In this document: positions 6,400 to 23,122 of the stretch, piece after piece
Position numbering within the stretch: position 1 is the stretch's first letter
Layout: every line of letters starts with the position of its first letter
The notes under the pieces: model-generated
What the model was told of the DNA's origin: nothing
Databases searched by the model: none
Seen by the model: the letters and a program-made list of their open reading frames with translations, nothing else
From: a virus
Direction: 5' to 3' (one strand)
IMG/VR virus record: IMGVR_UViG_3300042397_000750
Span: 1 to 27,695 of that record
DNA length: 27,695 nt
Program-made: the position numbers and the translations under genes

Positions 6400-6830
6400 A
6401 ATATATCAGTCACAGAGGAAATTTGACAGACGTCTTTCCTGACAAAGAAAATAGCCCAGAATACATCATGGCTGCAATTCGTGCTGACTTCGATGTTGAA
6501 GTTGATGTATGGTATATTGACGGTAAAATAATGTTAGGTCACGATACTCCGACCTACGAAGTTGAATTAAATTTTATAAAAAATACTAGATTTTGGTGTC
6601 ACGCTAAAAATGCAGAAGCATTAGAGTTAATGTTGGCAAACAATGTACATTGTTTTTGGCACGAAAATGATCAACGTGTACTAACTAGTAAAGGGTATGT
6701 TTGGACCTATCCATACAAACAAATTATTGACAACGCTGTTGTTGTTATTTTAGATAAGGAACTTGATTATGACTATGTCTCACGAGCAATTGCAGTATGT
6801 GGCGACTATGTTCAATCCTGGCGTCAATAA
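6396..6830 (+). CDS. Small glycerophosphodiester phosphodiesterase-like (GDPD) protein
   Basis: A 144-residue protein carrying the N-terminal active-site set of GDPD enzymes: H6-R7-G, E18-N19-S20 in the place of the usual ENT, E35-x-D37, and G48-H49-D50 (IMLGHD). In the family these residues bind a metal and hydrolyse a phosphodiester in glycerophospho compounds or lipid-linked polymers. At 144 residues it is much shorter than the usual ~240 and lacks most of the C-terminal half of the TIM barrel, so it may be a minimal enzyme or a binding relic. The ATGA start at 6396 is preferred over upstream codons. Its 3' end overlaps the next gene by 23 or more bases. Confidence 0.6.
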   Translation: MKYISHRGNLTDVFPDKENSPEYIMAAIRADFDVEVDVWYIDGKIMLGHDTPTYEVELNFIKNTRFWCHAKNAEALELMLANNVHCFWHENDQRVLTSKGYVWTYPYKQIIDNAVVVILDKELDYDYVSRAIAVCGDYVQSWRQ

Positions 6831-9877: not shown

Positions 9878-10560
9878 AATATCTATATGCTAACGGAGAT
9901 AGTTGGACACACGGCGATGAAATTCCTGATCGAGTCGACATGAACTCTGCCTCAACTCGTTATTACAATACATGGCCTTGGTTCCTTAGTCAAAATCTAG
10001 ATATTCCAGTTTGTGTAAATGATGCACAAGGTGGTGCCAGCAATGCAAGGATATTTAGAAGAACCAATGACTTTATTAATAACTGGATTGGCCAAGGTAA
10101 AGATTCTAAAGATCTATTCATATGTATAGGGTGGACTAGTCCTGAAAGAGCAGAAGTAAGCAGTGGCCAAGGCATTTATAGTGTAACAGTACAGCATTGT
10201 CTTAAATTACATAACTTACCAGTTGATGAAAAGTCTTTAAAAAAATACCACGAAGCATTTTATGAAAACTATACTGACAGTTATGGAGAACATATCACAG
10301 CAATGTATATGGTCAATTTAAGAACGTTATGTAAAGGCCTGGGTATTAAGTATTATGATTTTATTGCAGTAGGCAAACCTCCTTATTATTGGCAAGAAGT
10401 CATTAAGAAAAAATGGAATTTAGAATTAGATAACATGTATCTAAAGTCTGCATGGTTAGAAGAAGTGTGGAAAAACAATTGGCCTGTTTATCAATACAAA
10501 CATCCAACAATAGAGACTCATAGTATCTGGGCTGAAATTATATCAAAGGAAATTAAATGA
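9874..10560 (+). CDS. SGNH/GDSL-hydrolase-like protein, copy 3 (GTG start)
   Basis: 228 residues. The start is GTG at 9874, overlapping the preceding stop (GTGA). Block I is NGDSWTHGDE (7-16) with S10; block II is QGGASNARI; the conserved IGWTSPER strand follows; and the C terminus ends KHPTIETHSIWAEII, with H210 or H216 as catalytic His candidates. It is closest to copy 1, sharing the GDSWT(Y/H)G opening, the ASN motif and (F/W)TSPER, so the two likely diverged by tandem duplication. No signal peptide is seen, so it should act in the cytoplasm of the infected cell unless carried on the virion. Confidence 0.65.
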   Translation: MKYLYANGDSWTHGDEIPDRVDMNSASTRYYNTWPWFLSQNLDIPVCVNDAQGGASNARIFRRTNDFINNWIGQGKDSKDLFICIGWTSPERAEVSSGQGIYSVTVQHCLKLHNLPVDEKSLKKYHEAFYENYTDSYGEHITAMYMVNLRTLCKGLGIKYYDFIAVGKPPYYWQEVIKKKWNLELDNMYLKSAWLEEVWKNNWPVYQYKHPTIETHSIWAEIISKEIK

Positions 10561-11279
10561 ACATCATAATGGGATTATGTGGCGATGGCAGTCGTTTTAA
10601 AAATGTAGGATTTTCTTTGCCTAAATTTCTAATGATATACAATGGTGCTCCTATGATTTATCATGCAGTCGAAACTATTAAAATTCCAGGAAAAATACAT
10701 TTTGTTGTTAGAGAAGATCAGTTATTAGAAAACAAACATTTAGAAAAATTGCTTCTTGGACTTGGAGATGAAATTATAATTTCAAAAGGAAGAACTCGCG
10801 GTGCCGCTGAAAGTTTATTATTGGCAAAAAACTATATCAAGGATTTAAATGCTCCTATGCTAAGTGCCAATTGCGATCAGTATCTATCATGGAATCCTTT
10901 TAATTTAACAGACCAAATGCAACAGGAACCTGATGTAAATTTTATTGTTACTTACAAAGAAACAAGTCCAAAATGTAGTTATGTAAGGGAACAAGCCGGA
11001 TTCGTAGTAGAAGTACGGGAAAAACGGGTAATTAGTAATGATGCAACAATAGGTTTTTATCATTGGGCTCATACTCGTGACTTCTTCCAAGATGCCGAAC
11101 AGATGATAGCAGACGACCATAAAGAAAACGGTGAGTACTACGTTGCACCAGTTTATAATTATTCTATTCAACGTGGTCTAAAAGTTAAAAAGTATGCTAT
11201 TGATAATAAAGAGTTTTGGCCCGTAGGTACACCAGACGACTTTATGTACTTTAACGGCAATACTACATTTTTTGATTAA
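10557..11279 (+). CDS. Sugar-phosphate nucleotidyltransferase-like (NTP_transferase fold)
   Basis: 240 residues with the NTP-transferase signature of RmlA/GlmU-type enzymes, which activate a sugar 1-phosphate as an NDP-sugar. The N terminus is MGLCGDGSRF (5-14), in place of the usual GxGxR loop, with L21-P-K23 after it. RTRGAAESLLLA (79-90) matches the purine/sugar-contact helix, and ANCDQYL (104-110) supplies the catalytic metal-binding D107. The C terminus (KEFWPVGTPDDFMYF) fits the usual GTPxD ending. No left-handed beta-helix follows, so it is a minimal form. A good ribosome-binding site (AAAGGA) precedes the ATGA start. The substrate could be a hexose or a cyclitol phosphate; which one is unknown. 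Confidence 0.75.
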   Translation: MNIIMGLCGDGSRFKNVGFSLPKFLMIYNGAPMIYHAVETIKIPGKIHFVVREDQLLENKHLEKLLLGLGDEIIISKGRTRGAAESLLLAKNYIKDLNAPMLSANCDQYLSWNPFNLTDQMQQEPDVNFIVTYKETSPKCSYVREQAGFVVEVREKRVISNDATIGFYHWAHTRDFFQDAEQMIADDHKENGEYYVAPVYNYSIQRGLKVKKYAIDNKEFWPVGTPDDFMYFNGNTTFFD

Positions 11280-11280
11280 C

Positions 11281-11613
11281 ATGAAACAAGCACACATTAA
11301 AGATTTTGTCAAAGGATGGTTTGTAGGAAACTTCGAACCTAGTCTTCTGCAAGCAAATTTTGAAGTAGGGTTTCATCAGCATACAGCAGGTGAATTTCAT
11401 AAAGATCATTTTCATAAAAAAAGCACTGAGATTAATCTAGTAGTAGAAGGCAGTATTAAAATAAACGATCAAGTATTTGGACCTGGTGAAATTTTTGTAC
11501 TAGGTCCGTATGAAGTCAGTCAATGCGAATACTTGACTGATGTTAAGTTAGTAGTGGTAAGAAATATTAGTGATCCAAACGACAAGTTTGAGATCGATAT
11601 CGTTAACAAATAG
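11281..11613 (+). CDS. Small cupin-domain protein
   Basis: A 111-residue single-domain cupin. Cupin motif 1 reads around FHKDHFHKKSTEINLVVEGS (39-58), with H43, H45 and E50 as candidate metal ligands. Motif 2 reads FGPGEIFVLGPYEVSQC (66-82), but the usual last histidine after the proline is missing, so metal binding may be partial. Sugar epimerases/isomerases and binding proteins of this size are common in NDP-sugar clusters. A TTG nine bases earlier is possible, but ATG 11281, two bases after the upstream stop, is the simpler start; no ribosome-binding site is evident. It lies just before the RuBisCO-like gene, suggesting a shared substrate pathway. Confidence 0.65.
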   Translation: MKQAHIKDFVKGWFVGNFEPSLLQANFEVGFHQHTAGEFHKDHFHKKSTEINLVVEGSIKINDQVFGPGEIFVLGPYEVSQCEYLTDVKLVVVRNISDPNDKFEIDIVNK

Positions 11614-11630
11614 CAGTAAAGGAATCGAGA

Positions 11631-12869
11631 ATGAAATTTTTTCGGGATTTAACCGAGTTAGAAAAGAATCGATGCGTTGTAGTAACTTATTATATTGAAA
11701 CATACGAAGCCCTTGGTGACTTAAAGGATGCCGCGTGGAATCTTGCCATAGGTCAAAGTGTAGGAAACCCCAACGTTCGTAATCGCTGGGAAAGTGATGA
11801 CTTGTTTGAATTGTCGTCATGTGTGATTTATCACAGCGAAGAAGAACTTAAAGGCAAATATTCAGGTACAGTAAAAATTGGATTTCCTAAAGTAAACACC
11901 GATTGGCAAGGTGACGGGATTAGTCATTTAATGTGTCAACTTATGGGCGGACAATTAGACATCAATATGTTTAAAGTTTGCCGATTGAAACATATAGCAT
12001 TTCCTGCAGATGTTGAACAGAACTTTTTAGGTCCACGACAAGGCATCACTGGCATTAGAAAATTTGTAAATCGTTATGACAAGCCTTTGTCTGGCGGAAT
12101 CGTAAAACCTAAAACTGGTATGAGTCCTGCTACCTTAGCCGATATGGTTAAAGAGATGTTAGACGGCGGTGTTGATTTTATCAAGGAAGATGAAATTTTA
12201 AGTAATCCAAGTTTTTGTAGTCTTGAAGATCGTGTTGAGTTAATTTCGAACATTGTTAACAACTGTGGTCGCAACGTCATATACTGTTTCTGTATTAACG
12301 GAGACCATCACACAATTTTAGAACGTGCTAAGTTTGTAGCCAACAACGGCGGCAATGGAATACACATTAACTTCTGGAGCGGATTAGGCGTTTATAATTC
12401 TATTCGTAAACTAGACTTACCTTTGTTTATTCACTATCAAAAGAGTGGTGATAAAATTCTTACAGACAAACGTAACCCGTTCGGCATTGACTGGGCTGTG
12501 TTATGTGACCTAGCAGGACTGTGCGGAGTCGACACTATCCATGCAGGCATGTGGGGAGGGTATCTTAGTGATGACGAAATTGAACTCAAATATACCATGG
12601 AAACCCTACATAAGAGAAATGTTCTCCCAGCATTAAGTTGCGGAATGCATCCAGGTATTGTAACTGCTACAACTGAAAAGTTCGGTGCAGACTTCCTCGC
12701 TAACTGTGGTGGCGCAATACATGGACATCCAAGTGGAACACTGGCAGGAGCATTAGCAATGCGTCAGGCTATAGACAAAAAACCTGGTGAAGAATTTAGA
12801 ATCGCTATTGATAAATGGGGATATAAAACTGATAACGGTTCATTGCCTGAGTGGGTGTTAGAATTTTAA
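11631..12869 (+). CDS. RuBisCO-like protein (RLP, form IV type)
   Basis: 412 residues, matching the length and order of RuBisCO large-chain/RLP proteins. Seen: SGGIVKPKTGMSP (154-166), with K159 and K161 in place of K175/K177 of spinach RuBisCO; GGVDFIKEDE (179-188), in which K185, D187 and E188 match the carbamylated K201 and the metal ligands D203 and E204; IH (267-268) for H294; IHAG (303-306) for H327; LSCGMH (335-340) for S379; and CGGAIHGHPSG (359-369) for G403/G404. Lost: R295 (here Y269) and the loop-6 lysine K334 (here Y311). Known RLPs with this pattern enolise, isomerise or decarboxylate sugar-phosphate-like compounds instead of fixing CO2. The start is firm: AAGGA seven bases before ATG. 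The gene lies between a cupin and a kinase-fold gene, upstream of a sugar-phosphate cyclase. Confidence 0.9.
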   Translation: MKFFRDLTELEKNRCVVVTYYIETYEALGDLKDAAWNLAIGQSVGNPNVRNRWESDDLFELSSCVIYHSEEELKGKYSGTVKIGFPKVNTDWQGDGISHLMCQLMGGQLDINMFKVCRLKHIAFPADVEQNFLGPRQGITGIRKFVNRYDKPLSGGIVKPKTGMSPATLADMVKEMLDGGVDFIKEDEILSNPSFCSLEDRVELISNIVNNCGRNVIYCFCINGDHHTILERAKFVANNGGNGIHINFWSGLGVYNSIRKLDLPLFIHYQKSGDKILTDKRNPFGIDWAVLCDLAGLCGVDTIHAGMWGGYLSDDEIELKYTMETLHKRNVLPALSCGMHPGIVTATTEKFGADFLANCGGAIHGHPSGTLAGALAMRQAIDKKPGEEFRIAIDKWGYKTDNGSLPEWVLEF

Positions 12870-12870
12870 T

Positions 12871-13833
12871 ATGCAAATAATTAAGTTAAAAGGCGGCAGT
12901 CTTAATTCAACATCATTACATATGGGTGGAGATCGTAAGTTTGTAAGAAAAACAATCTCCACTAGTGCTAACAGAGAGTATGGATATGTGCGCTGGTATA
13001 GTCAGTTAAAAAAATTACAAAGATTTAATGCTCTTGTTCCAGGGTGTGTTCCTCAAGTGTACGATGCTGGATTTACAACAGACGGAGCATACTTTGATAT
13101 TGAATATATTGATGCAAAAGATATTAAAACATTATTTAAAGAAAATGCACTAACACGATATCAGACAGAAAAGATGCACAAATCTTTGTGGTTTGCTTTC
13201 GATAGATTACATAGCCACAAATATGCACCAAACGTTAGTAGCCTTAAACTGTACTTTCAGGAAGAAGTATTACAAAAACTAAATGATGCTAGACAGTTTC
13301 CAGAGTTTGAGCAATTTTATAATTTAGATGTATATGTACATCAAGGTCAAACTTTTAGCGGAATTAAAAATAAAATTGAACAATTTTCTAAATTGTTTGA
13401 CGAAGTAATTTCTTCCGAATGCTATGTACACGGTAATCCTACATTAGAAAATATTCTTTACAATCCAGACACTGATAAGATTGTGTTCATAGATCTGTAC
13501 GAAGAAGGTATAGTAGATAGTCAATTTATGGATTACAGTCAAATACTTCAATGTAGCAACAGTTTGTACGGACTGCTTAATGACGGAGTCCTCAACGTTA
13601 ACGGCAATGTCACAGATTTTTCTATAGATCCAGTTCCTGAAAACCTCATATATTTTAATGAGTTATTCAATGACGAATTGAAATATAGATATCCTAATTA
13701 CTATAAATTGGTAAAACTGTTTGAAGCAACACAATTTTTCCGTATGTTGCCCTTTAAATGCCATGCAGATAACATAGAAGCAGCCAAGTTTTTTTATGCC
13801 CATGCTTGCAGTCTAGTAAATAGATTACTATGA
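12871..13833 (+). CDS. Aminoglycoside/choline-kinase-fold phosphotransferase-like protein
   Basis: A 320-residue protein with the APH-type small-molecule kinase layout. K27 in FVRKTIS is the candidate ATP-binding lysine, FDIEYI (75-80) fits the hinge, FDRLHSHKY fits the helix before the catalytic loop, and YVHGNPTLENILYN (185-198) is the Brenner-type loop. IVFIDLYEEG (204-213) supplies the metal-binding D208. The usual catalytic aspartate of HGDxxxxN is Asn here (HGN, N189), so activity may be weak, altered or lost. Some pseudokinases carry such a change. The gene begins one base after the RuBisCO-like stop and ends with an ATGA overlap into the cyclase gene, suggesting it acts on the same small molecule. 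Confidence 0.7.
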   Translation: MQIIKLKGGSLNSTSLHMGGDRKFVRKTISTSANREYGYVRWYSQLKKLQRFNALVPGCVPQVYDAGFTTDGAYFDIEYIDAKDIKTLFKENALTRYQTEKMHKSLWFAFDRLHSHKYAPNVSSLKLYFQEEVLQKLNDARQFPEFEQFYNLDVYVHQGQTFSGIKNKIEQFSKLFDEVISSECYVHGNPTLENILYNPDTDKIVFIDLYEEGIVDSQFMDYSQILQCSNSLYGLLNDGVLNVNGNVTDFSIDPVPENLIYFNELFNDELKYRYPNYYKLVKLFEATQFFRMLPFKCHADNIEAAKFFYAHACSLVNRLL

Positions 13834-14894
13834 CATGGCGTGTAAAAACTAATCTTCCTGTACAATTTGAAATTAATAAAGTTTCCGATGCTCTAGACTT
13901 TTGGGTAATTCCAGGTCAGCGCCGTATTGCAATTGTTGATCAAATAGTGTATAATTTATATAAGGAAAGAATTCCTGAAGGTGTAGAATTATTAATTATT
14001 GAATCTACAGAAGCCGAAAAACATTGGGCAAATGCAGAACGTGTATTGGCATTTTTTGAAGAAAAGAATGTCTTACGTAGAAGTGAACCTATTATTGCAA
14101 TAGGCGGCGGCGTTCTATTAGATTTAGTTGGTTTTTGTTGTAGCATTTATCGCAGAGGTATTCCGTATGTTAGAATCCCTACAACATTGTTAGCCATAGT
14201 CGACGCTAGTGTAGGTGCTAAGACTAGCATTAATCACTTTGGTCGTAGAAATCGTATTGGTAGTTTTTACCCTCCTGTGCAAACTCTTATTGATACGAGT
14301 TTTATAAAAACACAGGACCGTAGGGAAATTTCCAACGGTATGGCAGAGATATTAAAGTTGGCAATTGTATTAGACCATCGTCTTTTTGAAATGATGGAAC
14401 TAGCGCCTCAACAGTTGTTAACACAGAAATTTCAAAATCATGTGTTAGCAGATCAAATTATTGATCGTGCAATCACAGGCATGACGCAAGAGTTAAATGA
14501 TAATCTGTGGGAACGAAATTTAAAACGACCGGTAGACTTTGGACATAGTTTTAGTCCAGTAGTTGAAATGAAAAATGTGCCTAATCTATTACACGGTGAG
14601 GCAGTTATTCTAGACTGTTTGTTAAGTAGTTGCATTAGCAATCTTAGAGGATTTTTGTCCAATGAAGATTTAGAACGTATTTTTACAGTAATTAAAAATT
14701 GTGGACTTGCTACAGAACACGAAGATTTTTACAACGTTGAATTGCTATGGAGTGGTTTAAAAGATGTAATGAATCACAGGAATGGTAATCAATATTTGCC
14801 TATACCTATTAGCATAGGATGTTGTGAAATTATCAACGATGTTACTTATAGTGAGATTCAACAAGCAACACAGAGATTAAAGAGTTTACAATGA
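13830..14894 (+). CDS. Sugar-phosphate cyclase, 2-epi-5-epi-valiolone-synthase-like (DHQ synthase superfamily)
   Basis: 354 residues, the usual size for dehydroquinate-synthase-superfamily cyclases. NAD-binding GGGVLLDLVGF (92-102) is followed by RRGIPYVRIPTTLLAIVDASVGAKT (108-132), then NRIGSFYPP (141-149), ISNGMAEILK (167-176), DFGHSFSP (236-243) and LLHGEAV (253-259). E173, H239 and H255 are the likely metal ligands. The GAKT, NRIG, SNGMAEILK and HRNGNQYLPIP (316-326) versions fit sedoheptulose-7-phosphate cyclases (EEVS and relatives of the validamycin, acarbose and gadusol pathways) better than shikimate-pathway AroB, which usually has GGKT and a SGLAEVIK helix. Such enzymes make valiolone-type C7 cyclitols. 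Subtype (EEVS, EVS or DDGS) is inferred and needs an alignment. Confidence 0.85.
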   Translation: MTWRVKTNLPVQFEINKVSDALDFWVIPGQRRIAIVDQIVYNLYKERIPEGVELLIIESTEAEKHWANAERVLAFFEEKNVLRRSEPIIAIGGGVLLDLVGFCCSIYRRGIPYVRIPTTLLAIVDASVGAKTSINHFGRRNRIGSFYPPVQTLIDTSFIKTQDRREISNGMAEILKLAIVLDHRLFEMMELAPQQLLTQKFQNHVLADQIIDRAITGMTQELNDNLWERNLKRPVDFGHSFSPVVEMKNVPNLLHGEAVILDCLLSSCISNLRGFLSNEDLERIFTVIKNCGLATEHEDFYNVELLWSGLKDVMNHRNGNQYLPIPISIGCCEIINDVTYSEIQQATQRLKSLQ

Positions 14895-15565
14895 AGACAG
14901 TAGTTATTACAGGGACAAGTAGAGGCCTTGGATTATCCATTGCAAAGAAATTTATTGATGCTGGCTGGCACGTAATAGGCATAGGACGTACATCTCCAAC
15001 GGCTTTACAAAATTATACACATTACACAGCAGACATCGCTAACATGAGTGAAGTATTTTCTGTGTTTGAATCTATGCGTAAATCAAAAACTTCTATCGAT
15101 TTATTAGTTAATAACAGTGCCGCATTTAATCATGGATCTTTTGATACTATGCAATATATTGATATTTGCACTGTGTTAGATACGAACGTCAAAGGCACTA
15201 TGTATGTAACTAGTGAAGCACTAAAAACTATGACTACTGGCTCTCGCATTATTTTTATTAACAGTGTAGCCGGACTTCGTAATATTCAAAATCAAAGTTT
15301 ATATTGCGCCAGCAAAGCCGCACTGACTAGTTTTGCTAGTACACTAGGACAAGAGTTGCGTGAACGTAAGATTAAAGTATCTAGCATTCATCCTGGTGGA
15401 ATTAATACTACATTGTGGAATGAGAAAAATCCTTATCCGTGTGGTAATGCCGACGAAGCATTGGATCCTAGTATTGTTGCCGATGCAGTATTTCATATTG
15501 CAGAAGTTCCACATACTACTGAGATCAAAACAATTACAATGTTTCCAGAAGTGGAGTGGCATTAA
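14891..15565 (+). CDS. Short-chain dehydrogenase/reductase (classical SDR)
   Basis: A 224-residue classical SDR. TGTSRGLG (7-14) binds the dinucleotide, VNNSAA (73-78) is the NNAG-type motif, and the catalytic set is S125 (INSVAG), Y138 and K142 (YCASK). IHPGGINT (166-173) is the usual PGxxxT loop. The family oxidises or reduces alcohols with NAD(P)H. Because it starts by ATGA overlap with the cyclase gene, reduction or oxidation of a cyclitol ring keto group, as SDRs do in C7-cyclitol pathways, is the most likely job (inference). R11 after the TGTS loop hints at NADPH preference. Fold and catalysis are certain; the substrate is not. Confidence 0.85.
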   Translation: MKTVVITGTSRGLGLSIAKKFIDAGWHVIGIGRTSPTALQNYTHYTADIANMSEVFSVFESMRKSKTSIDLLVNNSAAFNHGSFDTMQYIDICTVLDTNVKGTMYVTSEALKTMTTGSRIIFINSVAGLRNIQNQSLYCASKAALTSFASTLGQELRERKIKVSSIHPGGINTTLWNEKNPYPCGNADEALDPSIVADAVFHIAEVPHTTEIKTITMFPEVEWH

Positions 15566-16260
15566 TGTACGATATAGTGTTTATTAGTTACGGCGAACCA
15601 AACGCAGAGGCTAACTGGGAACGTCTTAAAAAACGTTTTCCTCTAGCCAAACGTGTTAAGGATGTTAAAGGAATTCATCAAGCACATATTGCGGCCGCAA
15701 AGAAATGCTTTACAAAGATGTTCTGGGTAGTAGACGGTGATGCAGAAATTATGGATGACTTCAATTTTGATCATGAAGTCAGTGAATATGATTTAGATGT
15801 TGTGCATGTTTGGCGTAGTCGCAATCCTATTAACGATTTAGAATACGGCTACGGAGGAGTTAAATTATTTCCACGTAAACTCACATTAGACATGGACATT
15901 ACTAAACCAGATATGACCACAAGTATCAGTACAAAATTTAAAGCAATGGAGCAGGTCTCTAACATTACTGCTTTTAATACAGATCCTTTTAATACTTGGA
16001 AAAGTGCTTTTAGAGAATGTGTAAAACTTGCCTCAAAAGTTATCGACGGCCAAGTAGATGAAGAAACAGAAATACGTCTTATGACATGGTGTACCTATGT
16101 AGACAAACGTCAGTTTAACGACTGGGCGTTTTTAGGTGCAGAAGATGGCAAAATGTATGGAATGCAAAAAGCAGGAGACATAGAGGCCTTGAGTAAAATA
16201 AATGACTTTGAGTGGTTACATGCTTTCTTTTCAAGATATCCCGTTTCAAAAAATAGTTAA
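15565..16260 (+). CDS. Putative GT-A glycosyltransferase (DGD motif), copy 2
   Basis: 231 residues. Translation is placed at ATG 15565 because GGAG lies at 15553-15556 and the codon overlaps the SDR stop (TAATG). The opening IVFISYGEPNAEANW (4-18) is followed by LAKRVKDVKG (27-36) and VVDGDAEIMDDF (55-66), with D57-G-D59. Then come YGYGGVKLF and NDWAFLGAEDGKMYG. It is homologous to 4094-4987 throughout but shorter at the C terminus. Like that copy it is followed directly by a radical-SAM gene, so the pair appears to be a duplicated functional unit. A sugar transfer role is inferred from the DxD motif and fold pattern. Confidence 0.65.
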   Translation: MYDIVFISYGEPNAEANWERLKKRFPLAKRVKDVKGIHQAHIAAAKKCFTKMFWVVDGDAEIMDDFNFDHEVSEYDLDVVHVWRSRNPINDLEYGYGGVKLFPRKLTLDMDITKPDMTTSISTKFKAMEQVSNITAFNTDPFNTWKSAFRECVKLASKVIDGQVDEETEIRLMTWCTYVDKRQFNDWAFLGAEDGKMYGMQKAGDIEALSKINDFEWLHAFFSRYPVSKNS

Positions 16261-17197
16261 GTTCGGACAGCGAACTATGCTGGATCGTCCCTTATTCAAC
16301 ACTAGTTGGATACTGGGACGTTTTTGTAATTACAACTGTAGTTACTGTTGGCCGTATGCTCGTAGTGATAAACTAGATCATCAAAATTTTGAAATCTATA
16401 CACGCACTGTAGACGAAATAAAACGCCAAGCCCGGGCTAACGGCTTTACAGAATTTCATTGGAGTTTTAGTGGTGGTGAACCAACAGCATATAAACAACT
16501 TAATGATTTAGTAAAATACTTAGACGAAAAAGAAAGTAGTTATCAAAGTATTCATATGACTACTAATTTATCACCAGGTAGTAAATGGTGGAACACTTGG
16601 TGTAATAATACAGACATGTTGCAACGCCGGAGTATCACTGCTAGTTTTCACGATGAATTTGCTAAGGAACAAGAGTTTGGCGACAAGTGCTTACAATTAA
16701 TTTATGAACGTGTGCATTTAACAATTAATCAAGTTATGGTACCTGAAAAGTTTTACGAACTATATGATCGTATGGCACGATTTCATAAACGTGGAATTAA
16801 TGTAACGTTAAAGCCGCAAAGCGATCCAACTGCTAGTAGTATTGTTGAAGGGTATACAACAGATATGATCAATAAAATGCAGACAGGATTTCCTCAATTG
16901 TCGAATGGAGAAGAACTATACCAAATTGCGTTATACGATTCAGACAACGCAGAGTATCTATTTGATCAAGCAGAACGATTCAATGCTTTTGATTTTAACA
17001 AATTTAAAGATTGGACTTGCAATGCCGGATACCAAAGTGTTATAATAAGAGGTACAGAAGTAAAACGTAGTTATAGTTGCCACGATATGCCATTAGGGAA
17101 TATTTTGACAGGATTTGATTTATTTAAACAGACTCAACAATGCATCACACCTAGTTGTGTTAGCAGTGCCGACAGTAAGATTCCTAAAAGAAAATGA
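16220..17197 (+). CDS. Radical SAM protein, second copy
   Basis: About 325 residues from ATG 16220; ATG 16202 in the same frame would lengthen it by six residues and deepen the overlap with the previous gene. The cluster motif is C36-x3-C40-x2-C43 (RFCNYNCSYC), and WSFSGGEPT is the SAM-binding motif. The C-terminal part has further cysteines (DWTCNAGYQS, YSCHDMPLGN, QQCITPSCVSS), as in SPASM- or twitch-type auxiliary cluster domains. It is shorter than the copy at 4987 and lacks the long His/Cys N-terminal domain, so it is a different subfamily, though both follow the same kind of GT gene. Substrate unknown; it could modify a sugar, peptide or cyclitol. Confidence 0.8.
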   Translation: MLSFQDIPFQKIVKFGQRTMLDRPLFNTSWILGRFCNYNCSYCWPYARSDKLDHQNFEIYTRTVDEIKRQARANGFTEFHWSFSGGEPTAYKQLNDLVKYLDEKESSYQSIHMTTNLSPGSKWWNTWCNNTDMLQRRSITASFHDEFAKEQEFGDKCLQLIYERVHLTINQVMVPEKFYELYDRMARFHKRGINVTLKPQSDPTASSIVEGYTTDMINKMQTGFPQLSNGEELYQIALYDSDNAEYLFDQAERFNAFDFNKFKDWTCNAGYQSVIIRGTEVKRSYSCHDMPLGNILTGFDLFKQTQQCITPSCVSSADSKIPKRK

Positions 17198-17853
17198 GTA
17201 GATTAATTGTTTTTGGTTGCTCGTTGGCCTACGGAGTAGGTCTAGTGGATTGCTGGCCGAAGCCGTTAAAACCTAGTAAACTATCTTGGCCACAATTAAC
17301 AGCAACGGCAATGGAAAGAACATTAGTAAATAAATCTTTTCCAGGAGCATCTAATAAACGTATATGGCATTCGATTAAAAAGTTTAAATTTAAATCTGAC
17401 GATTTGGTTATTATTTCTTGGACATTTCCTAACAGATATTCAGTAATAACGTCGCCGTGGAATACGAATGATTTGCATCATAATCATTCTGAAATAGATT
17501 TGGCATCAAAGTCTTACTATACAGACATCTATTCTACATATGATTCATATGTAATGTCTAATCTATTTGTAGATCATGCTAATAAAATTTTACAAGGGTT
17601 GAACATAAAAGTATATAATTTAGTAGTTGAACAATACTTTAAACATATAATCGGCAAGCATGAATTAATTCCGATGTATATAGGAGTCTATGAAGAATTG
17701 TATCCTAAGGCACTAGATAATGATCATTTAGGACAAGAAGGTCACATAGCATTTGCATCAGACCTTATGGATTATTTTGGTGAATCACATACATTAGTTG
17801 CGGTCAAACCTTATAATATTTTTAAACAACTAAAACAACTAATATGGAAATAG
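17194..17853 (+). CDS. SGNH-hydrolase-like protein, copy 4 (GCS variant)
   Basis: 219 residues starting by ATGA overlap. Block I is VFGCSLAYGVG (6-16), with the usual GDS changed to GCS (nucleophile S10 retained). Block II is FPGASNKRI, then ISWTFPNRY in the position of TSPER, and DNDHLGQEGH near the C terminus gives the Asp/His pair. It is more distant from the three tandem copies (8289-10560), having a shorter middle and a hydrophobic C-terminal tail with KQLKQLIWK. The D-to-C change in block I occurs in some active SGNH proteins, so it need not mean inactivity. It may act on the glycan made by the neighbouring GT and radical-SAM pair. Confidence 0.6.
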   Translation: MSRLIVFGCSLAYGVGLVDCWPKPLKPSKLSWPQLTATAMERTLVNKSFPGASNKRIWHSIKKFKFKSDDLVIISWTFPNRYSVITSPWNTNDLHHNHSEIDLASKSYYTDIYSTYDSYVMSNLFVDHANKILQGLNIKVYNLVVEQYFKHIIGKHELIPMYIGVYEELYPKALDNDHLGQEGHIAFASDLMDYFGESHTLVAVKPYNIFKQLKQLIWK

Positions 17854-18434
17854 ATACAGAACACTTACATTACTGGATGCAGGCCATCCGTCAAAGTCCA
17901 GATCCTATGAGAACCATGGATGCGTTCTGGAGCGGACAACTTAAAAGTAAAGAATGGTTAATTACCAATTTACGTAAGAATGTTAACAAGTTTGTTACGA
18001 TTGACATTCACGGTGGCTGGGTAGGAGTATTGTCTAGCATGTTGTTTCAAAGCAGTATTCCTATTAAATCTATCCGTAGTGTTGACATTGATCCTAGTTG
18101 TGAACCCATTGCTGTTATGATGAATAAGAAAGAAGAAATGGTAGGACGCTTTCGTGCAGTGACCGCAGATATGTGTGCAATCCGTAGTGATGCAGATGTT
18201 ATTATTAATACAAGTTGCGAACATATTACACAAGAGCACTACGACTTGTGGTTAAGTGGAATGCCACATAGCAGTCTTTTAATACTTCAAAGCAATAATT
18301 ACAATATACCCGAACATGTTAGGATTGCTAACAGTTTGGACGAATTTAAACAACAATGCGGCATTGATGTACTTTGGGCCGGAGAATTAGAACTGCCATT
18401 ATACACTAGATACATGGTAATAGGAAAACAGTAA
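17844..18434 (+). CDS. Putative class I SAM-dependent methyltransferase
   Basis: 196 residues. VTIDIHGGWVGVLSSMLF (51-68) matches motif I of Rossmann methyltransferases, RSVDIDPSC (78-86) with D81 matches the acidic motif II that binds the SAM ribose, and DVIINTSCEHI resembles the motif IV strand. The start overlaps the SGNH stop by ten bases and no ribosome-binding site is obvious, so translation is probably coupled. Such short methyltransferases recur in marine-phage glycan clusters. O- or N-methylation of the sugar product is a reasonable guess, but the acceptor cannot be determined. Confidence 0.6.
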   Translation: MEIDTEHLHYWMQAIRQSPDPMRTMDAFWSGQLKSKEWLITNLRKNVNKFVTIDIHGGWVGVLSSMLFQSSIPIKSIRSVDIDPSCEPIAVMMNKKEEMVGRFRAVTADMCAIRSDADVIINTSCEHITQEHYDLWLSGMPHSSLLILQSNNYNIPEHVRIANSLDEFKQQCGIDVLWAGELELPLYTRYMVIGKQ

Positions 18435-19357
18435 TGAAAATTTTAATGACAGGAACAAGCGGCTTTATAGGGCAACACTTAGAGCCGTTGTTAAAAGAAC
18501 AGCACGAAATATATTCTTTAAAAAGTGACCTACTAGATTTTGACGCAGTTACAAAAGAAGTGTTGGACTTTCAACCTGACATTATCGTACACCTTGCCGC
18601 ACGTACAGAAGTTGAAAAGAGTTTTTATGAACAAACAACATTTAGTCAGATCAACTATGTTGGCAGTGTAAACTTAATTGAAGCCGCGTCAAAGATTCCT
18701 ACTCTTAAGAATTTTGTATTTGCCAGCACCATGGAAGTCTATGGTTGGCAACCTATTAGTGATGTTGTACAAAGTGGAAAAGTTCCAGATATATTTGAAG
18801 CGTTTGATGAAAATACGTATCCTAACCCCAATGCTCCATATGCAGTGGCCAAGTACGGTGTTGAAAAGTATTTAGAATATGCACATCGTTGCTTAGACTT
18901 ACCCTTTACTGCTATTAGACAAACTAACTGTTATGGCCGCAAAGACAACGACTTCTTTGTCACCGAACAATTTATCATGCAGATGTTAACTAATCCGCAT
19001 GAAGTAGAGTTTGGTTATGCAGAGCCATACCGTAACTTTATCTTTATTGATGACATGCTGAGTGCGTGGACAACTATCATTAATAATCCTACATTAGTAA
19101 ACACTGGAAAGATACTAACTATAGGACCAGACAATCCAATTAAGATTAAACACTATGCAGATATGATTGCAACAAAACTCAATTGGACAGGTAAAATTCA
19201 TTGGCATCGTAAACTACATCGTCCTGGAGAAATCTATTGGTTAAACAGTAATCACAACTTGCTTACCAAGTTAACAGGGTGGATACCTCAAGTAACTTTA
19301 AGTGACGGACTAGATAAAACTATTGAAATTTGGAGAGAGAAATTAAATGTTAAATGA
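18434..19357 (+). CDS. NAD-dependent epimerase/dehydratase (extended SDR)
   Basis: 307 residues, full-length extended SDR. TGTSGFIG (6-13) binds NAD, VHLAAR (52-57) follows, and the catalytic set is S98-T99 (FASTMEVYG) with Y136-x3-K140 (YAVAK). The C-terminal half has RNFIFIDDMLSAW, the typical substrate-domain segment. Enzymes of this kind epimerise, reduce or dehydrate NDP-sugars. AGGA about nine bases before the ATG supports the start, which overlaps the previous stop (TAATG). With the nucleotidyltransferase at 10557 it suggests that an activated sugar is made within the operon. Its exact reaction (4-epimerase, dehydratase or reductase) cannot be assigned. Confidence 0.85.
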   Translation: MKILMTGTSGFIGQHLEPLLKEQHEIYSLKSDLLDFDAVTKEVLDFQPDIIVHLAARTEVEKSFYEQTTFSQINYVGSVNLIEAASKIPTLKNFVFASTMEVYGWQPISDVVQSGKVPDIFEAFDENTYPNPNAPYAVAKYGVEKYLEYAHRCLDLPFTAIRQTNCYGRKDNDFFVTEQFIMQMLTNPHEVEFGYAEPYRNFIFIDDMLSAWTTIINNPTLVNTGKILTIGPDNPIKIKHYADMIATKLNWTGKIHWHRKLHRPGEIYWLNSNHNLLTKLTGWIPQVTLSDGLDKTIEIWREKLNVK

Positions 19358-20468
19358 ATTACAAGTACATTGGGACAATAAAGTTGTCGACTACGATTTA
19401 GAAAAGTACAACTGGCCTGCGTGGGCATTGAGTGTAATTCAGGAAGTTGCTCCGCAAATTAAAGAATTAGAAACAATGCATAATTTCCTAACTCCTGCAG
19501 AAATTGTTAGAGTAGGACAGCATGTACAAAATGCATGTAGTCGTAGAGATTTCATGGAACGCTTTGATGAGTTTGCCGAAAACATTGTGCCACAGCGTAT
19601 TGGCAATAAGCGATATATGATTCAACGTCAAGGTACGCTTCGTGTTGTTATTCCTAACCAAGCAAAGGTTGGACGTAGGCTTGCATTTCATCAAGGTATT
19701 TTCGTAGGCAATGGACGTGGATGCAGAACTATCTGGACGCCATTTACTCGTGCAGAAAAGACCAACACTATGTGGATGTTGGATCTGGCAGTTAGTCGTG
19801 AGATTACTAAAAAAGTGCTTGCTGAAAAGTGGAGTATGGAAAAGTTTGAAGAAGAAAGTTTAAAACATGCGTGGCCAGTTACACTAGACCCGGGTCAGAG
19901 CCATTTATTCTTCCAAGAACATATTCACGGTAACGTAAATAATGATGAAGGCTACACCCGTGTTAGTATGGATATGCGTATTCTAATTGAAGGTGAAGAA
20001 TGGGGACGTAGACTACCAGGAGGTTTTATGCGTTTACCAGGCGACTACGAAGTTACAGAAGTAATGGATTATACAGGTAAAAGTTTTATTACCTATGCAG
20101 GCTGGAATAGCAAGTTTAGTAAAGACATTCCTTTACCAATGCAACGTGCTATTATTGAACCATACTGTGTTAAGAACAAAATTGCCTACACTAGTTACGA
20201 ATTTGAAAATGAACATTTAGATTGGCAACCAGGTCTTGAATATTACATCAAAGAACGCCCTGATGGAATTGTTTTGTGTAGTATGTATTGCTTAACAGAT
20301 GATGTTAAACGCCGTAGCGAGTTATTGCAGTTAGCATTAGACCTGGGAGTGGAATTACATTTTGCCAATGAATTAACAAGTCTAAGAACTAAAAAAGATT
20401 TAGACAAAATCGAAACTTATCTAAACTTTGCAGTACCTAAAAAAGATCCGTATGTTTGGGAAGAATAA
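19347..20468 (+). CDS. Probable 2OG-Fe(II)-oxygenase-like domain fused to a sporadic-carbohydrate-cluster (LIC12192-type) domain
   Basis: 373 residues in two parts. Residues 45-250 resemble a phytanoyl-hydroxylase-like oxygenase: RLAFHQGIFVGNGRG (111-125), RTIWTPFT (127-134), then HIHGNVNND (192-200) and TRVSMDMRI (204-212), with H115 and H192/H194 as candidate iron ligands and R205/R211 for 2-oxoglutarate. Residues 252-350 (IPLPMQRAIIEPYC at 261-274, DGIVLCSMYCL, GVELHFANELTSL) match the pattern I recall for the LIC12192/TIGR04323 family of 'sporadic carbohydrate cluster' proteins, whose function is unknown. The two families are usually separate neighbouring genes, so the fusion suggests a joint function. 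A GGAGAGAG sequence precedes the start. Confidence 0.6.
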   Translation: MLNELQVHWDNKVVDYDLEKYNWPAWALSVIQEVAPQIKELETMHNFLTPAEIVRVGQHVQNACSRRDFMERFDEFAENIVPQRIGNKRYMIQRQGTLRVVIPNQAKVGRRLAFHQGIFVGNGRGCRTIWTPFTRAEKTNTMWMLDLAVSREITKKVLAEKWSMEKFEEESLKHAWPVTLDPGQSHLFFQEHIHGNVNNDEGYTRVSMDMRILIEGEEWGRRLPGGFMRLPGDYEVTEVMDYTGKSFITYAGWNSKFSKDIPLPMQRAIIEPYCVKNKIAYTSYEFENEHLDWQPGLEYYIKERPDGIVLCSMYCLTDDVKRRSELLQLALDLGVELHFANELTSLRTKKDLDKIETYLNFAVPKKDPYVWEE

Positions 20469-20980
20469 TGAGAGGACATATTGAACCACACTGGTCTAGA
20501 GATCAATTAATATCGATCAACTACGAAAGCCAGGAAAATATACAACGTGGATTCTCTCCTATTGATTATGGGGATGTGTACTCACAAGTAGAAGTTTCCA
20601 TGGACATACATAAAGGATTACATCCGTTGTTTGATACAGTTAAATTAGAAGAATATTTTAACTGGCTGGACGCAAAAATGTATGCAATACATTGTATGAA
20701 GCCAGGCTGTGCTTTGCCAGAACATTCTGACAAGTATCCTTATTATATTAAAACTAACAATATAAAAGACACTAATTCTATCCAGCGTGTTATTGTCTTT
20801 TTAGAAAACAAAAAGCCCGGACATAGATTTACACTTAATGGTGTAGAATTAGAAGACTGGGTTGCCGGAGATTGGATTAGTTGGGTAGGCACAGAAATTC
20901 ACGGTGCATACAATAAAGGCATTGAAACTCGATATACTCTACAGATTACTGGAATTATTCGCGGATTAAATCCAAGGTAA
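20468..20980 (+). CDS. Aspartyl/asparaginyl-hydroxylase-type 2OG-Fe(II) oxygenase
   Basis: 170 residues from ATG 20468, which overlaps the upstream stop (TAATG). The iron and cosubstrate set is clear: H86-S-D88 (LPEHSDKYP), H145 (GTEIHGAYN) and R155 (ETRYTLQITG), in the order HxD, H, R of double-stranded beta-helix oxygenases. AGDWISWVG (133-141) is the strand before the distal His. The family hydroxylates protein side chains or small molecules using O2 and 2-oxoglutarate. It is the last gene of the plus-strand operon and its 3' end overlaps the convergent amidinotransferase gene by 26 bases. Confidence 0.7.
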   Translation: MRGHIEPHWSRDQLISINYESQENIQRGFSPIDYGDVYSQVEVSMDIHKGLHPLFDTVKLEEYFNWLDAKMYAIHCMKPGCALPEHSDKYPYYIKTNNIKDTNSIQRVIVFLENKKPGHRFTLNGVELEDWVAGDWISWVGTEIHGAYNKGIETRYTLQITGIIRGLNPR

Positions 20981-21938
20981 CACAGTGAAACCCGCCGCCT
21001 AATGTGCGTTGTTGTCTTGCTGGCAGCATCGCACATTCTATTTTGTGCTTCTCTAATGCTTTTCTTAATTCGTGTTGATGATCTGGTATTGCCGCTAGAT
21101 TAGAATTTACAGAAAAGATATTCATTGCTACCCACTTGCTACTATTACAATAACCCGGATAGTGTGCAACTTCGCCAGGATCTGGTGCCCATATAACGTC
21201 CCAACTTTGTAAAGGTTTAGGTAATTGGTCTACACTTTTTATTCTACTAGGATTTAATAGCATTAGGCCTTCACGTAATAAGGTAATAGTGCTGTCGATG
21301 TGCATATAACTATATACACCCTCCAATGTCCATACACGTTTATTGCCTACTAGACTTTGTAGATATTCTGCACCCTTCTTATTACCACTGTTACTGACAA
21401 GATAAATTAAATCATCGTTGACACGAAGTACGTTTGCCGCATCGAAACAAGGTTGTGTTTCATTCAACGCAAGTGTGTCTTTGTCTCCTAGGCAATTTAG
21501 ATTATATAAGTCGTCGGTGCGATTCAAAGGTGCTTCAATGTATCTTGCACCTAACATGTGTAAAGGTTGAAAATGCTCGTGCATAGCCAAATACTCTTTG
21601 TGTCTTGCACGTAGAGGCTGGGGAGATGCTAGTATCATATCTCTGTAAACTAGAACACTATCTCTAGGACAATAATTATAATAGTTAGGTAGTGGTGTAC
21701 GTTTTGGTCTTAGTACTTCTACACTTTCGCCTTTAAGGAAATTGCAAAACGCTTCTAGATCTTCGTTGGCTTCATCGATGACCTGTTTAGGATAAACACC
21801 TTGTGGTATATCTTTCTCATCTTTTTTGTCTGCGTAATTAACTACACGTAAACTTACATCTAACGTAGGAATAGTTGCACCATCAGCAACTCCTACAATA
21901 ACACTTTTTAACGGATCCCATTCGTTTTTACTTAACAT
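20955..21938 (-). CDS. Glycine/inosamine-phosphate-type amidinotransferase
   Basis: 327 residues. The catalytic triad of the guanidine-group-transferring family is complete: D166 in FDAANVLR (165-172), H213 in HIDST (213-217), and nucleophile C319 in GGGFHCVTLDL (314-324), close to the C terminus as expected. CPRD (90-93) and the opening NEWDPLKSVIVG (5-16) are also family landmarks. Such enzymes move an amidino group from arginine to glycine (creatine-type) or to inosamine phosphates (StrB in streptomycin synthesis). With an aminotransferase gene directly upstream and a cyclitol cyclase nearby, transfer to an amino-cyclitol or amino-sugar is favoured (inference). Its 3' end overlaps the opposing operon. 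Confidence 0.9.
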   Translation of the reverse strand: MLSKNEWDPLKSVIVGVADGATIPTLDVSLRVVNYADKKDEKDIPQGVYPKQVIDEANEDLEAFCNFLKGESVEVLRPKRTPLPNYYNYCPRDSVLVYRDMILASPQPLRARHKEYLAMHEHFQPLHMLGARYIEAPLNRTDDLYNLNCLGDKDTLALNETQPCFDAANVLRVNDDLIYLVSNSGNKKGAEYLQSLVGNKRVWTLEGVYSYMHIDSTITLLREGLMLLNPSRIKSVDQLPKPLQSWDVIWAPDPGEVAHYPGYCNSSKWVAMNIFSVNSNLAAIPDHQHELRKALEKHKIECAMLPARQQRTLGGGFHCVTLDLIRE

Positions 21939-22527
21939 CTTTGAATACTTTCATTTTTGATAAATCTGGATAGTCATTGTTAGACCATATTTTAGGAGGA
22001 GTTTTCATTGCATTAACAATTTTATTCATGCCTAATTCTGCTGTTTCAGGAGTCATATAATAATGATAACCTAACATAGATATATCTTGTTCTGCCCAAG
22101 GCACATTTGGAATACGCCCATCATAACTCATCATCTTTAATATTTTTGCGTCCTCGGGATTGTCGCATAGTATTATGCCTCCCCTGCCAAGATTGAGATG
22201 TTTTCTAAATTGAAAACTTACACACATTAGTGTACCTTTTATATAACTGTCATTACGCCATAGTACAGCGGCATCAATTATATTTTCAGTTATGTAGTAA
22301 TAGTCCTGCCACGATTCTTTTCTAAAATTCCATTGTAAATTTAATTTTATAAATGTCATAGGAACAGAAAGATATGTATTGCTAGGACAACTTGCCTGTT
22401 TTATATTCTTATATCTTAAACATAATTCGAGAGCATGTGTGCATGAATCTGTAGCCACAGCATATGGAGCAGAATAAAATTCTGCTACTACATCTTCAAA
22501 TTTAGAAACTATATCAAAGTTTGACAT
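21928..22527 (-). CDS. Short DegT/DnrJ/EryC1-type PLP aminotransferase
   Basis: 199 residues from the ATG at 22527 (an in-frame ATG at 22548 would add seven residues). PLP-binding features of the DegT sugar-aminotransferase family are present: ATDSCTHALEL (25-35) for the phosphate-binding turn, IIDAAVLW (83-90) with D85 for the pyridine nitrogen, SFQFRKHLNLGRGG (104-117) with K109 as the Schiff-base lysine, and MLGYHYYMTPETAELGM (151-167), like the family's GxNyrMs motif. Normal members have about 370-400 residues; here the C-terminal half is absent and the middle is compressed. Whether a phage-specific short form is active is open. It overlaps both neighbours and probably makes the amine used by the amidinotransferase. 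Confidence 0.75.
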   Translation of the reverse strand: MSNFDIVSKFEDVVAEFYSAPYAVATDSCTHALELCLRYKNIKQASCPSNTYLSVPMTFIKLNLQWNFRKESWQDYYYITENIIDAAVLWRNDSYIKGTLMCVSFQFRKHLNLGRGGIILCDNPEDAKILKMMSYDGRIPNVPWAEQDISMLGYHYYMTPETAELGMNKIVNAMKTPPKIWSNNDYPDLSKMKVFKDVK

Positions 22528-23122
22528 ATGCTGTTCTAGGATCACCATCAGGGAATTCGCCCGGCCATATCTCGTACATTGCTAAACTTTTCTGCCATTC
22601 TTCTACATTTAGTTCCCACACATTTTGATCACAACCTCGATAGTGTGTTTCTTTGACCCATGAAAATCTTCCTAATTCGGCTTGCATAGGAAACCATAAA
22701 TTATTAACTCGCTGTTGACTACCCATAGGATTCGCGTTACTTGTAGCAAACAACTTTTTACCCTCTCCGGCCCATTGTATGCTTATAGGTATGAAAAATT
22801 GTGTAGCACAACATTGCTGTTCTACAATAATCGTTTGCTTAGTATGTGGCCATGGTTTGTGAGTTTCACTAGTAAAAGTACAAGTCCTTGCCAGTATCCT
22901 ATATGAGTTAGGACCCATAACATCGTCAAAACTATGTATGCACACGCCTCCGATGAATTTACCGTTGTATTGTAACATCCATCCTGCCCATTCGCGTTCG
23001 TTACGAAAACAGTCAAACATTGATTTTTGACTATTATTATTTTCGTAGCCACGTCTGTCAGCCTCTGAGTAAAACTCAGCCAAATCTAATTCAGGAGTCC
23101 ATCTAATAAGTTTATACGTCAT
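22514..23122 (-). CDS. Unknown protein, possible GNAT-like acetyltransferase
   Basis: 202 residues. The opening (MTYKLIRWTPELDLAEFY) and the middle segment EWAGWMLQYNGKFIGGVCIHSF (44-65) read like the helix and beta-hairpin of a GNAT acyltransferase, where a GKxIG strand follows the first helices. No clean acetyl-CoA loop (Q/RxxGxG/A) is seen, so the assignment is weak. The C-terminal half contains QFFIPISIQWAG, FATSNANPMGSQQRV and a Trp-rich end. The start overlaps the upstream stop by four bases (ATGA), so it belongs to the minus-strand operon. N-acylation of an amino sugar or amino cyclitol is possible but not shown. Confidence 0.4.
   Translation of the reverse strand: MTYKLIRWTPELDLAEFYSEADRRGYENNNSQKSMFDCFRNEREWAGWMLQYNGKFIGGVCIHSFDDVMGPNSYRILARTCTFTSETHKPWPHTKQTIIVEQQCCATQFFIPISIQWAGEGKKLFATSNANPMGSQQRVNNLWFPMQAELGRFSWVKETHYRGCDQNVWELNVEEWQKSLAMYEIWPGEFPDGDPRTAYVKL

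Follow-up and report, generated by a model that had tools for sequence, protein, structure and literature searches.

A predicted virus operon for nucleotide-activated C7 cyclitols beside a RuBisCO-like module in an IMG/VR virus record

Do the sugar-modifying genes clustered on one virus record build a single unusual sugar, or several? The question is raised by IMGVR_UViG_3300042397_000750, a virus record from IMG/VR, 27,695 bases long and possibly incomplete, that was analyzed whole (hereafter the window). It encodes a sedoheptulose-7-phosphate-type cyclase resembling 2-epi-5-epi-valiolone synthase (EEVS), an aminoglycoside phosphotransferase (APH)-fold protein, a short-chain dehydrogenase/reductase (SDR), a nucleotidyltransferase (NTPT), a cupin, a RuBisCO-like protein (RLP), an amidinotransferase and a DegT-family protein. 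A first-pass annotation, made from the sequence alone, had joined most of these into one route to a nucleotide-activated amino- or guanidino-cyclitol. We consider it probable that positions 12871-15565 are a copy of a virus operon, NTPT-APH-EEVS-SDR, for making a nucleotide-activated C7 cyclitol, and that the RLP genes and the amidinotransferase/DegT genes belong to separate modules. As a sequence-based prediction, a virus operon for C7-cyclitol activation is well supported, and its cyclase family, part of the active-site fingerprint, the conservation of the operon and an archaeal copy of the quartet are supported directly.

The cyclase and its operon

A PDB search with the cyclase ranked ValA first (3.8e-76), ahead of 5tpr (9.5e-56) and of AroB proteins (6.3e-42 at best). 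In a 45-row tree (27 viral, 1 archaeal, 5 bacterial/PDB sedoheptulose-cyclase, 2 of the desmethyl-4-deoxygadusol synthase (DDGS) type, and 10 AroB), the viral cyclases and the archaeal one formed a single clade (support 100/99) on the sedoheptulose-cyclase side, and the AroB rows were split at 100/100 from all sedoheptulose-cyclase rows, DDGS-type ones included. Active-site positions were mapped onto the viral proteins through the alignment, starting from what we take to be the ValA pair, D281/H360, and the metal ligands. The presumed ligands (E173, H239 and H255) are kept in 27/27 viral rows; the counterpart of the ValA pair, Asp236/His316, is present in those same 27 and in the archaeal row. 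The 2 DDGS-type rows carry Ala/Thr at these two sites; in the 10 AroB rows the first site is always Asn and the second is never His. Such fingerprint sites are described in one study as distinguishing EEVS from DDGS (PMC4426668). The first-pass choice of a sedoheptulose-7-phosphate cyclase over AroB is thus upheld by the tree, the Asp/His pair and the ValA match, and the enzyme would be expected to release 2-epi-5-epi-valiolone or an epimer. We also weighed the cyclase as a viral 3-dehydroquinate synthase, an ordinary auxiliary gene for the host shikimate pathway. This would fit the Pfam and NCBIfam naming of the DHQ synthase superfamily and an aroB match of 206.9 bits (4.6e-61), itself below the 305-bit cut-off; it is contradicted by the AroB split, by the Asp/His pair being found in 0/10 AroB rows, by the PDB ranking and by conserved operon partners that are not shikimate genes, and we find it scarcely credible. 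Tree and fingerprint together led us to reject the AroB reading.

Within the window the APH and cyclase genes, and likewise the cyclase and SDR genes, overlap by 4 bases (module 12871-15565), an arrangement that recurs widely. Viral contigs were scanned with the window cyclase (17 loci), with a cyclase alignment (71 loci), with an alignment of the APH family (93 stretches, 80 kept), and for the RLP (81 stretches, 80 kept) and the amidinotransferase (208 stretches, 80 kept). A locus was called testable when at least 3 open reading frames (ORFs) lay on both sides, gene calls being the longest ORF, and the neighborhood counts rely on profiles trained on the same families (the SDR profile on 5 seeds, some with approximate ends). 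The scans miss members: record G685 has an amidinotransferase and yet is absent from the amidinotransferase scan list. As the pooled nonredundant sets (<60% shared 4-residue words; 26 cyclase and 42 amidinotransferase loci) include several loci from the same contig, counts were repeated scan by scan. Across the 60 testable loci of the cyclase-alignment scan, an APH gene stood immediately before the cyclase (-1) in all 60, an SDR gene lay within six genes in all 60 and directly after the cyclase in 59, and an NTPT gene lay within six genes in 56, the figures for RLP and amidinotransferase at that distance being 18 and 0. Nonredundant cyclase loci gave APH 19/19, SDR 19/19, NTPT 18/19 and RLP 5/19, and the independent APH-alignment scan found the cyclase at +1 in 65/65 testable loci. 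The usual order, NTPT-APH-EEVS-SDR, was seen in 18 of the 26 pooled loci, and in the 12 loci inspected the operon genes overlap slightly, in many cases by 4 bases. Comparison with three related contigs (18 gene comparisons) gave a ratio of nonsynonymous to synonymous polymorphism (pN/pS) of 0.03-0.29 for the six operon genes of 10557-15565, values low enough to indicate purifying selection on the proteins. The YxxSK motif was present in 39/46 SDR members.

The operon also occurs in an archaeon. A cyclase search in the 18 RLP-carrying cellular genomes introduced below returned 11 matches of AroB strength, of which the 7 placed in the tree are AroB, and one strong match (4.6e-100) in a metagenome-assembled genome (MAG) titled Woesearchaeota (contig L223). 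Here the four genes lie in a row in the order APH-EEVS-SDR-NTPT, with genes for a polysaccharide flippase and a PMT-type protein next to them; the first three of the quartet are 40%, 48% and 40% identical to their window counterparts, and the NTPT is 28% identical to an RLP-linked viral NTPT. Among 371 genomes sampled from the phylum, the carrier itself was the only one with a match to this cyclase at E<=1e-50, so the phylum as a whole does not share the operon. Since the archaeal cyclase and NTPT both group with viral records L283 and L287 (100/99 and 98/97), and the gene order is common to all, the simplest reading is that the whole operon would have passed between virus and archaeon, in either direction. 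The APH family was found in 0/398, 0/379 and 0/395 sampled genomes of three phyla, with a control recovering 4/4 known carriers. Contig L223 further encodes a form III-type RuBisCO (5198-6493), grouping with form III in the tree, and an RLP of the viral kind lies on another contig of the same MAG (L188), cut by the contig end.

With an APH-fold protein, an SDR and an NTPT tied to the cyclase in one operon, in divergent viruses and in one archaeal MAG, a nucleotide-activated cyclitol is the best reading, and this element of the first-pass proposal stands. The reactions and their sequence, the nucleotide used and the glycan at the end are our inference: the cyclase would close sedoheptulose 7-phosphate to 2-epi-5-epi-valiolone or its epimer, the SDR would reduce the ring ketone, the APH-fold protein would phosphorylate a hydroxyl, the NTPT would make the nucleoside diphosphate (NDP)-cyclitol, and nearby glycosyltransferases would attach it to a surface or virion glycan. 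The cyclitol might instead remain free or phosphorylated, as an osmolyte, sunscreen precursor or enzyme inhibitor, and never enter a glycan. Animals convert EEVS products to gadusol (PMC4426668), 4/60 testable cyclase loci have no NTPT within six genes, and no glycosyltransferase came out as linked to the operon. On the other side stand the NTPT of the other 56 loci, the flippase adjoining the archaeal copy, and the T4-like record L247, where the operon neighbors include sugar-nucleotide dehydratase, epimerase and DegT genes, and we think such a free product improbable.

Several observations nevertheless weigh against an activation operon that ends in a glycan, and one concerns the NTPT of the window itself. 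The EEVS-linked NTPTs form a clade at 99/98 that holds the archaeal copy and 23 of 24 viral rows, the exception being a second L287 copy that lies beside the cyclase operon. The window NTPT falls outside this clade and groups at 100/99 with the RLP-linked NTPTs of two RLP-only loci (L065, L076). Each of eight records of the window's type (window-type; 38-89 kb) has one NTPT match, 24-27% identical to the EEVS-type query and at the operon's own NTPT position, so that a module of NTPT, cupin and RLP, which also occurs alone, occupies the place of the cognate NTPT. A cognate EEVS-type NTPT was not found in these eight records, which may be fragments, and cyclitol activation in the window lineage would depend on a different NTPT; window-type genomes may hold a second one elsewhere. 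The EEVS-linked assignment was made by a custom profile (112-151 bits, EEVS-only rows shown) and the tree: the NTPT of L247 matches only NTP_transf_3 (0.0039, below cut-off), and the archaeal copy has no Pfam match. The APH-fold protein may also be something other than a typical kinase, as all 42/42 family sequences, the archaeal one included, read HGN where APH kinases have HGD, whose Asp we take to be catalytic; conservation this complete argues for a function, though not necessarily for ordinary kinase chemistry. Its APH fold is well supported by the AlphaFold model, for which the best Foldseek matches were 5-methylthioribose kinase (E 6.9e-8) and APH(3')-Ia and which aligned to the aminoglycoside phosphotransferase 3tdv at Z 18.6 over 257 residues. 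Searched against PDB sequences, the APH alignment returned matches at E>=0.1 only. A ROK kinase is annotated beside three bacterial cyclases and was not seen at the viral operon; in a Pfam scan of the 30 window proteins neither a ROK kinase nor a VOC-type protein, presumably the class of the C7-cyclitol epimerase, was present. The cyclase check covered two fingerprint sites and three metal ligands out of 14 published sites, and a bacterial row annotated as sedoheptulose 7-phosphate cyclase (StrepNBC467) has Arg in place of the His (Asp/Arg) and sits on a distant branch, a sign that the annotated name by itself carries little weight. No glycosyltransferase is tied to the cyclitol module by conservation. 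Finally, all the viral sequences are metagenomic: among 50,697 cultured-phage records there were 14 cyclase matches, at most about 33% identical, and no RLP match.

The RuBisCO-like module

The first-pass enzyme list, otherwise sound, had overlooked the RLP at 11631-12869, between the cupin and the kinase-like gene. The viral scan gave at least 78 RLP loci, and within six genes of the RLP in the 61 testable ones lay an NTPT (61), a cupin (53), a phosphodiesterase resembling glycerophosphodiester phosphodiesterases (GDPD; 44), the cyclase (11) and an APH gene (11). The GDPD assignment is weak (HRG motif in 44/62, PDB match at E 0.6, no NCBIfam match). A genome scan added 41 cellular loci, 18 of them close relatives at 39-66% identity and the rest at 22-28%; the close relatives come from SAR11, Patescibacteria, Pacearchaeota, Nanoarchaeia, Woesearchaeota, Verrucomicrobia, Elusimicrobia and others. 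At 16/18 of these loci there is an NTPT match; the remaining two lie on contigs only 3.1 and 3.7 kb long. Neighbors on two SAR11 contigs include two Wzy_C proteins with a sub-cut-off polysaccharide-synthesis match on one, and GT17 with LepA on the other; with a match (E<=1e-40) in 2/297 sampled SAR11-order genomes, the RLP is an accessory gene in SAR11. In the RLP tree one clade with support of 100/100 unites 22 viral with 18 cellular rows and excludes form III RuBisCO as well as the distant RLPs, which are mainly alphaproteobacterial. One cellular row, on a 3.3-kb contig titled Crocinitomicaceae (L171), has an RLP identical to a viral row and may be a mis-binned virus. Given these neighborhoods and the NTPT tree, the cupin and window NTPT, whose classes the first-pass annotation had right, are better assigned to this module than to a cyclitol pathway.

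Structurally, the RLP model fits two proteins equally well: 2zvi, a 2,3-diketo-5-methylthiopentyl-1-phosphate (DK-MTP-1-P) enolase (Z 41.4, root-mean-square deviation 3.0, 373 residues), and the form III RuBisCO 2cwx (Z 41.1). The Lys-x-Asp-Glu metal site is kept (IKED in 25/26). The loop-6 lysine, which we take to be K334 and to be required for carboxylation, is lost: the Lys of the form III motif GTAVGK falls, in the alignment, inside HAGMWGGY, and HxGMWGGY is found in 24/26, in a region whose model residues 308-312 have a predicted local distance difference test score (pLDDT) <50. The protein is of the form IV kind, a RuBisCO fold with carboxylase residues lost, and falls below the NCBIfam equivalog cut-offs for MtnW (TIGR03332; 116 bits vs 513.6) and OiaX (151.3 vs 700). 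We set a carboxylase reading aside on account of the absent loop-6 lysine; with the metal site kept and that lysine lost, we suggest that the RLP probably does not fix CO2 but enolizes or isomerizes a sugar monophosphate, which the NTPT would then activate. A methionine-salvage reading, combining the RLP and cupin with the APH-fold protein as a methylthioribose kinase, was set aside because the APH gene goes with the cyclase and is found at only 11 of the 61 RLP loci.

Two RLP alleles circulate among window-type phages, 85-100% or 46-50% identical to that of the window (11631-12869; L066, L068, L069, L074, L077), and in the divergent group the cyclase is still 83-95% and the APH-fold protein 79-96% identical, which looks like replacement of the RLP gene alone. 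The RLP match of L077 (8001-9046) is interrupted by 10 stop codons in the frame tried, which may reflect a frameshift in the gene or a match that spans two frames.

How, then, do the modules relate in the window lineage? We rank first that the RLP-type NTPT also activates the cyclitol, second that RLP and cupin act on the cyclitol, and third that the cyclitol goes unactivated there. The second option would make 10557-15565 one pathway, with RLP and cupin taking, for example, the C2 epimerase step, which acarbose and validamycin require. The replacement of the cognate NTPT by NTPT-cupin-RLP upstream of APH-EEVS-SDR, the single NTPT match in each of the 8 window-type records and the enolases among the closest structural matches of the RLP all speak for it. 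Yet the cyclase is not within six genes of the RLP in 50/61 testable loci, the fetched stretch lacks an RLP at 52/71 cyclase-scan loci, and SAR11 contigs carry NTPT and RLP together; on balance this single pathway seems to us unlikely. Returning to separate modules, we posit a broader scenario to which we give slightly less than even credence: several virus lineages (T4-like phages and those of the 394- and 519-kb records among them) would build pseudosugar glycans by their own NDP-C7-cyclitol route, with the operon exchanged with at least one DPANN archaeon, and would also carry a second sugar-nucleotide route with an RLP in glycan biosynthesis, common to certain SAR11 bacteria and DPANN archaea, both routes being fused around one NTPT in the window. 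The conserved RLP-NTPT pairing, from viruses to SAR11 and DPANN archaea, offers a testable sugar-nucleotide-synthesis role for an uncharacterized RLP clade, and we regard this module as a second finding of interest equal to that of the cyclitol operon.

Amidinotransferase, mini-DegT and the remaining window genes

The amidinotransferase was the part found most often in viral contigs, in the 208 stretches noted above, and in the cultured-phage collection it matched one cyanophage at 56.7% identity and 12 Campylobacter phage records at 22-25%. In its tree, 22 rows including the cyanophage form a clade (100/98), outside which falls one long-branched viral row (L045), and the clade joins StrB1, StrB1-like and Amycolatopsis proteins at 96/90, apart from arginine:glycine amidinotransferase, as the first-pass annotation had anticipated. 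The catalytic Cys and His are present in 90/90 aligned viral sequences and the PRD motif in 31/31; an aminocyclitol phosphate, as for StrB1, is one candidate acceptor. Its usual neighbor is a DegT protein of about 200 residues, within six genes in 68/71 testable loci, and a cluster of 2-oxoglutarate (2OG) oxygenases lies within eight genes of 29/42 nonredundant amidinotransferases. The DegT class called in the first pass was correct, but the protein is not a full aminotransferase: the family is half-size, 206 aa in the window, with 83/86 members at 194-234 aa and 3 shorter. Of 14 members inspected, 12 have the pyridoxal phosphate (PLP)-lysine motif, and an 11-member alignment shows no exception to the lysine. 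This mini-DegT family merits structural study.

Could these enzymes nonetheless act on the cyclitol, with mini-DegT aminating the ketone and the StrB1-like enzyme amidinating it before activation? The substrate of StrB1, an inosamine phosphate, and a Streptomyces locus with a DegT gene two genes before a StrB1-like gene would suit such a guanidino-amino-cyclitol pathway, as would the presence of an amidinotransferase in 8/71 fetched cyclase-scan loci, the ten window-type phage records that appear in both scan lists (in the window the two genes are nine genes apart), and record G685. The joined pathway was the core of the first-pass proposal, which had named independent carriage in related phages as the observation to look for against it, and that is mostly what we found, each side with its own partners. 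An amidinotransferase lay within six genes of the cyclase in 0/26 nonredundant cyclase neighborhoods; at E<=1e-10 there was none in the 11 EEVS-only records (59-394 kb, possibly fragments; no RLP within the fetched stretch, the remainder of each record not having been searched for one) or in the distant window-type G688, likewise possibly a fragment; no cyclase was present in the fetched stretch at 71/79 amidinotransferase loci; and 69/79 amidinotransferase records were absent from the cyclase-scan record list. A single guanidino-cyclitol pathway is not supported by these counts, and we hold it to be quite improbable, although a lineage-specific link between cyclase and amidinotransferase in window-type phages is possible. 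The amidinotransferase and mini-DegT genes are thus better seen as a third, separable module, which would probably act on a different keto sugar, first aminating it and then adding a guanidino group.

Two further amidinotransferase loci may be recorded. G685 (the record of L008) has two amidinotransferases, 70% and 40% identical to that of the window, and on an Amycolatopsis plasmid (L366, 4375-6549) an amidinotransferase domain (43%) opens a gene annotated as amino acid--tRNA ligase-related, with two phosphotransferase genes beside it.

All seven enzyme classes named in the first pass are present at or near the positions it gave, by Pfam, PDB or signature matches; the coordinates are collected in Table 1. 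The window has a GC content of mostly 32-40%, and no tRNA genes were found in its 27,695 bases. Five ORFs on the left (1791, 2665, 4094, 6763 and 7568) look like glycosyltransferases from their sequence, although Pfam gave no family for any of them, and DUF6071 matches (Pfam) lie at 8289-9107 and 9874-10560. Of the four PHROG families that ORF 1 matches, one carries the name tail fiber protein and another head scaffolding protein. The record also encodes three different radical SAM proteins (4987-6399, 16202-17197 and 25129-26205) alongside the glycan genes. Among viral hallmarks, Terminase_6N was matched in 0/13 virus records, and the T4 major capsid protein Gp23 in 3/18 records searched: 0/8 window-type records, and two EEVS-only records (136 and 146 kb) of five such searched.

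Table 1 Features of the window (IMGVR_UViG_3300042397_000750, whole record, 27,695 bases) and the evidence for each
Feature	Coordinates	Strand	Evidence
Small GDPD-like phosphodiesterase, RLP-associated family	6381..6830	+	within six genes of RLP in 44/61 testable loci
NTPT, RuBisCO-like-module type	10557..11279	+	Pfam NTP_transferase 1e-4, just over its cut-off; tree
Small cupin	11272..11613	+	no Pfam match; signature H.H.{3,4}E.{6}G in 106/107 family members; near RLP
RuBisCO-like protein, 412 residues	11631..12869	+	Pfam RuBisCO_large 5e-43; AlphaFold pLDDT 89; tree
APH-fold kinase-like protein, HGN for HGD	12871..13833	+	Pfam APH 4.8e-5; model pLDDT 92; Foldseek/VIA matches
Sedoheptulose-7-phosphate-type cyclase (EEVS-like)	13830..14894	+	Pfam DHQ_synthase 6e-36; PDB best match ValA 3.8e-76; tree; fingerprint D236/H316
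SDR	14891..15565	+	Pfam adh_short 3.1e-40; near cyclase in 60/60 testable loci
Probable 2OG-Fe(II) oxygenase	20456..20980	+	no Pfam match; 27% identical to S-SCSM2R ORF annotated 2OG-Fe(II) oxygenase
StrB1-related amidinotransferase	20955..21938	-	no Pfam match; PDB best match StrB1 9.5e-64; tree 96/90
Mini-DegT aminotransferase, 206 aa, PLP-lysine motif SFQFRKHLNLGRGG	21928..22548	-	Pfam DegT 8.5e-16

Comparison with known systems

The only C7 cyclitols that we know to be nucleotide-activated are those of natural-product pathways, among them the acarbose and validamycin routes. Searches of the open-licence literature found no description of a virus-encoded C7-cyclitol activation operon and, in titles and abstract openings, no phage-encoded RLP. 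If the reading is right, phages make pseudosugars, which may resist glycosidases or alter receptor recognition.

The closest parallel is with acarbose and validamycin biosynthesis (AcbC or ValA, AcbU, AcbR), which share with the virus operon an EEVS-type cyclase, a reductase, a kinase-fold protein and a nucleotidyltransferase, with the tested cyclase sites equal to those of ValA. Cyclase, reductase and nucleotidyltransferase are encoded together in the window as in NDP-C7-cyclitol pathways, the window NTPT being of the RLP-linked type. In the acarbose pathway, according to PMC9200736, the AcbU kinase and the AcbR nucleotidyltransferase make GDP-valienol. The virus operon differs in being compact and overlapping, in its HGN-bearing APH-fold protein, and in that Pfam found no ROK kinase and no VOC-type protein among the 30 window proteins scanned.

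Streptomycin-type genes (StsC/StrS, StrB1) likewise place a DegT-family aminotransferase near a StrB1-group amidinotransferase, whereas the viral mini-DegT has only about 200 aa, a probable 2OG oxygenase is often close by, and a cyclitol cyclase is mostly missing from the fetched stretch. With MtnW, the DK-MTP-1-P enolase, and with OiaX the viral RLP has fold and metal site in common; it differs in forming its own clade (in a tree that holds neither MtnW nor OiaX), in scoring far below their cut-offs and in its tie to an NTPT. Among cultured phages the nearest counterpart is Synechococcus phage S-SCSM2R. The cultured-phage collection, this phage included, offers no RLP match and no close cyclase match; what S-SCSM2R does share with the window is an amidinotransferase at 56.7% identity, a DegT protein of similar size at 54% (annotated as 3-amino-5-hydroxybenzoic acid synthase) and a 2OG oxygenase, all set among glycosyltransferases.

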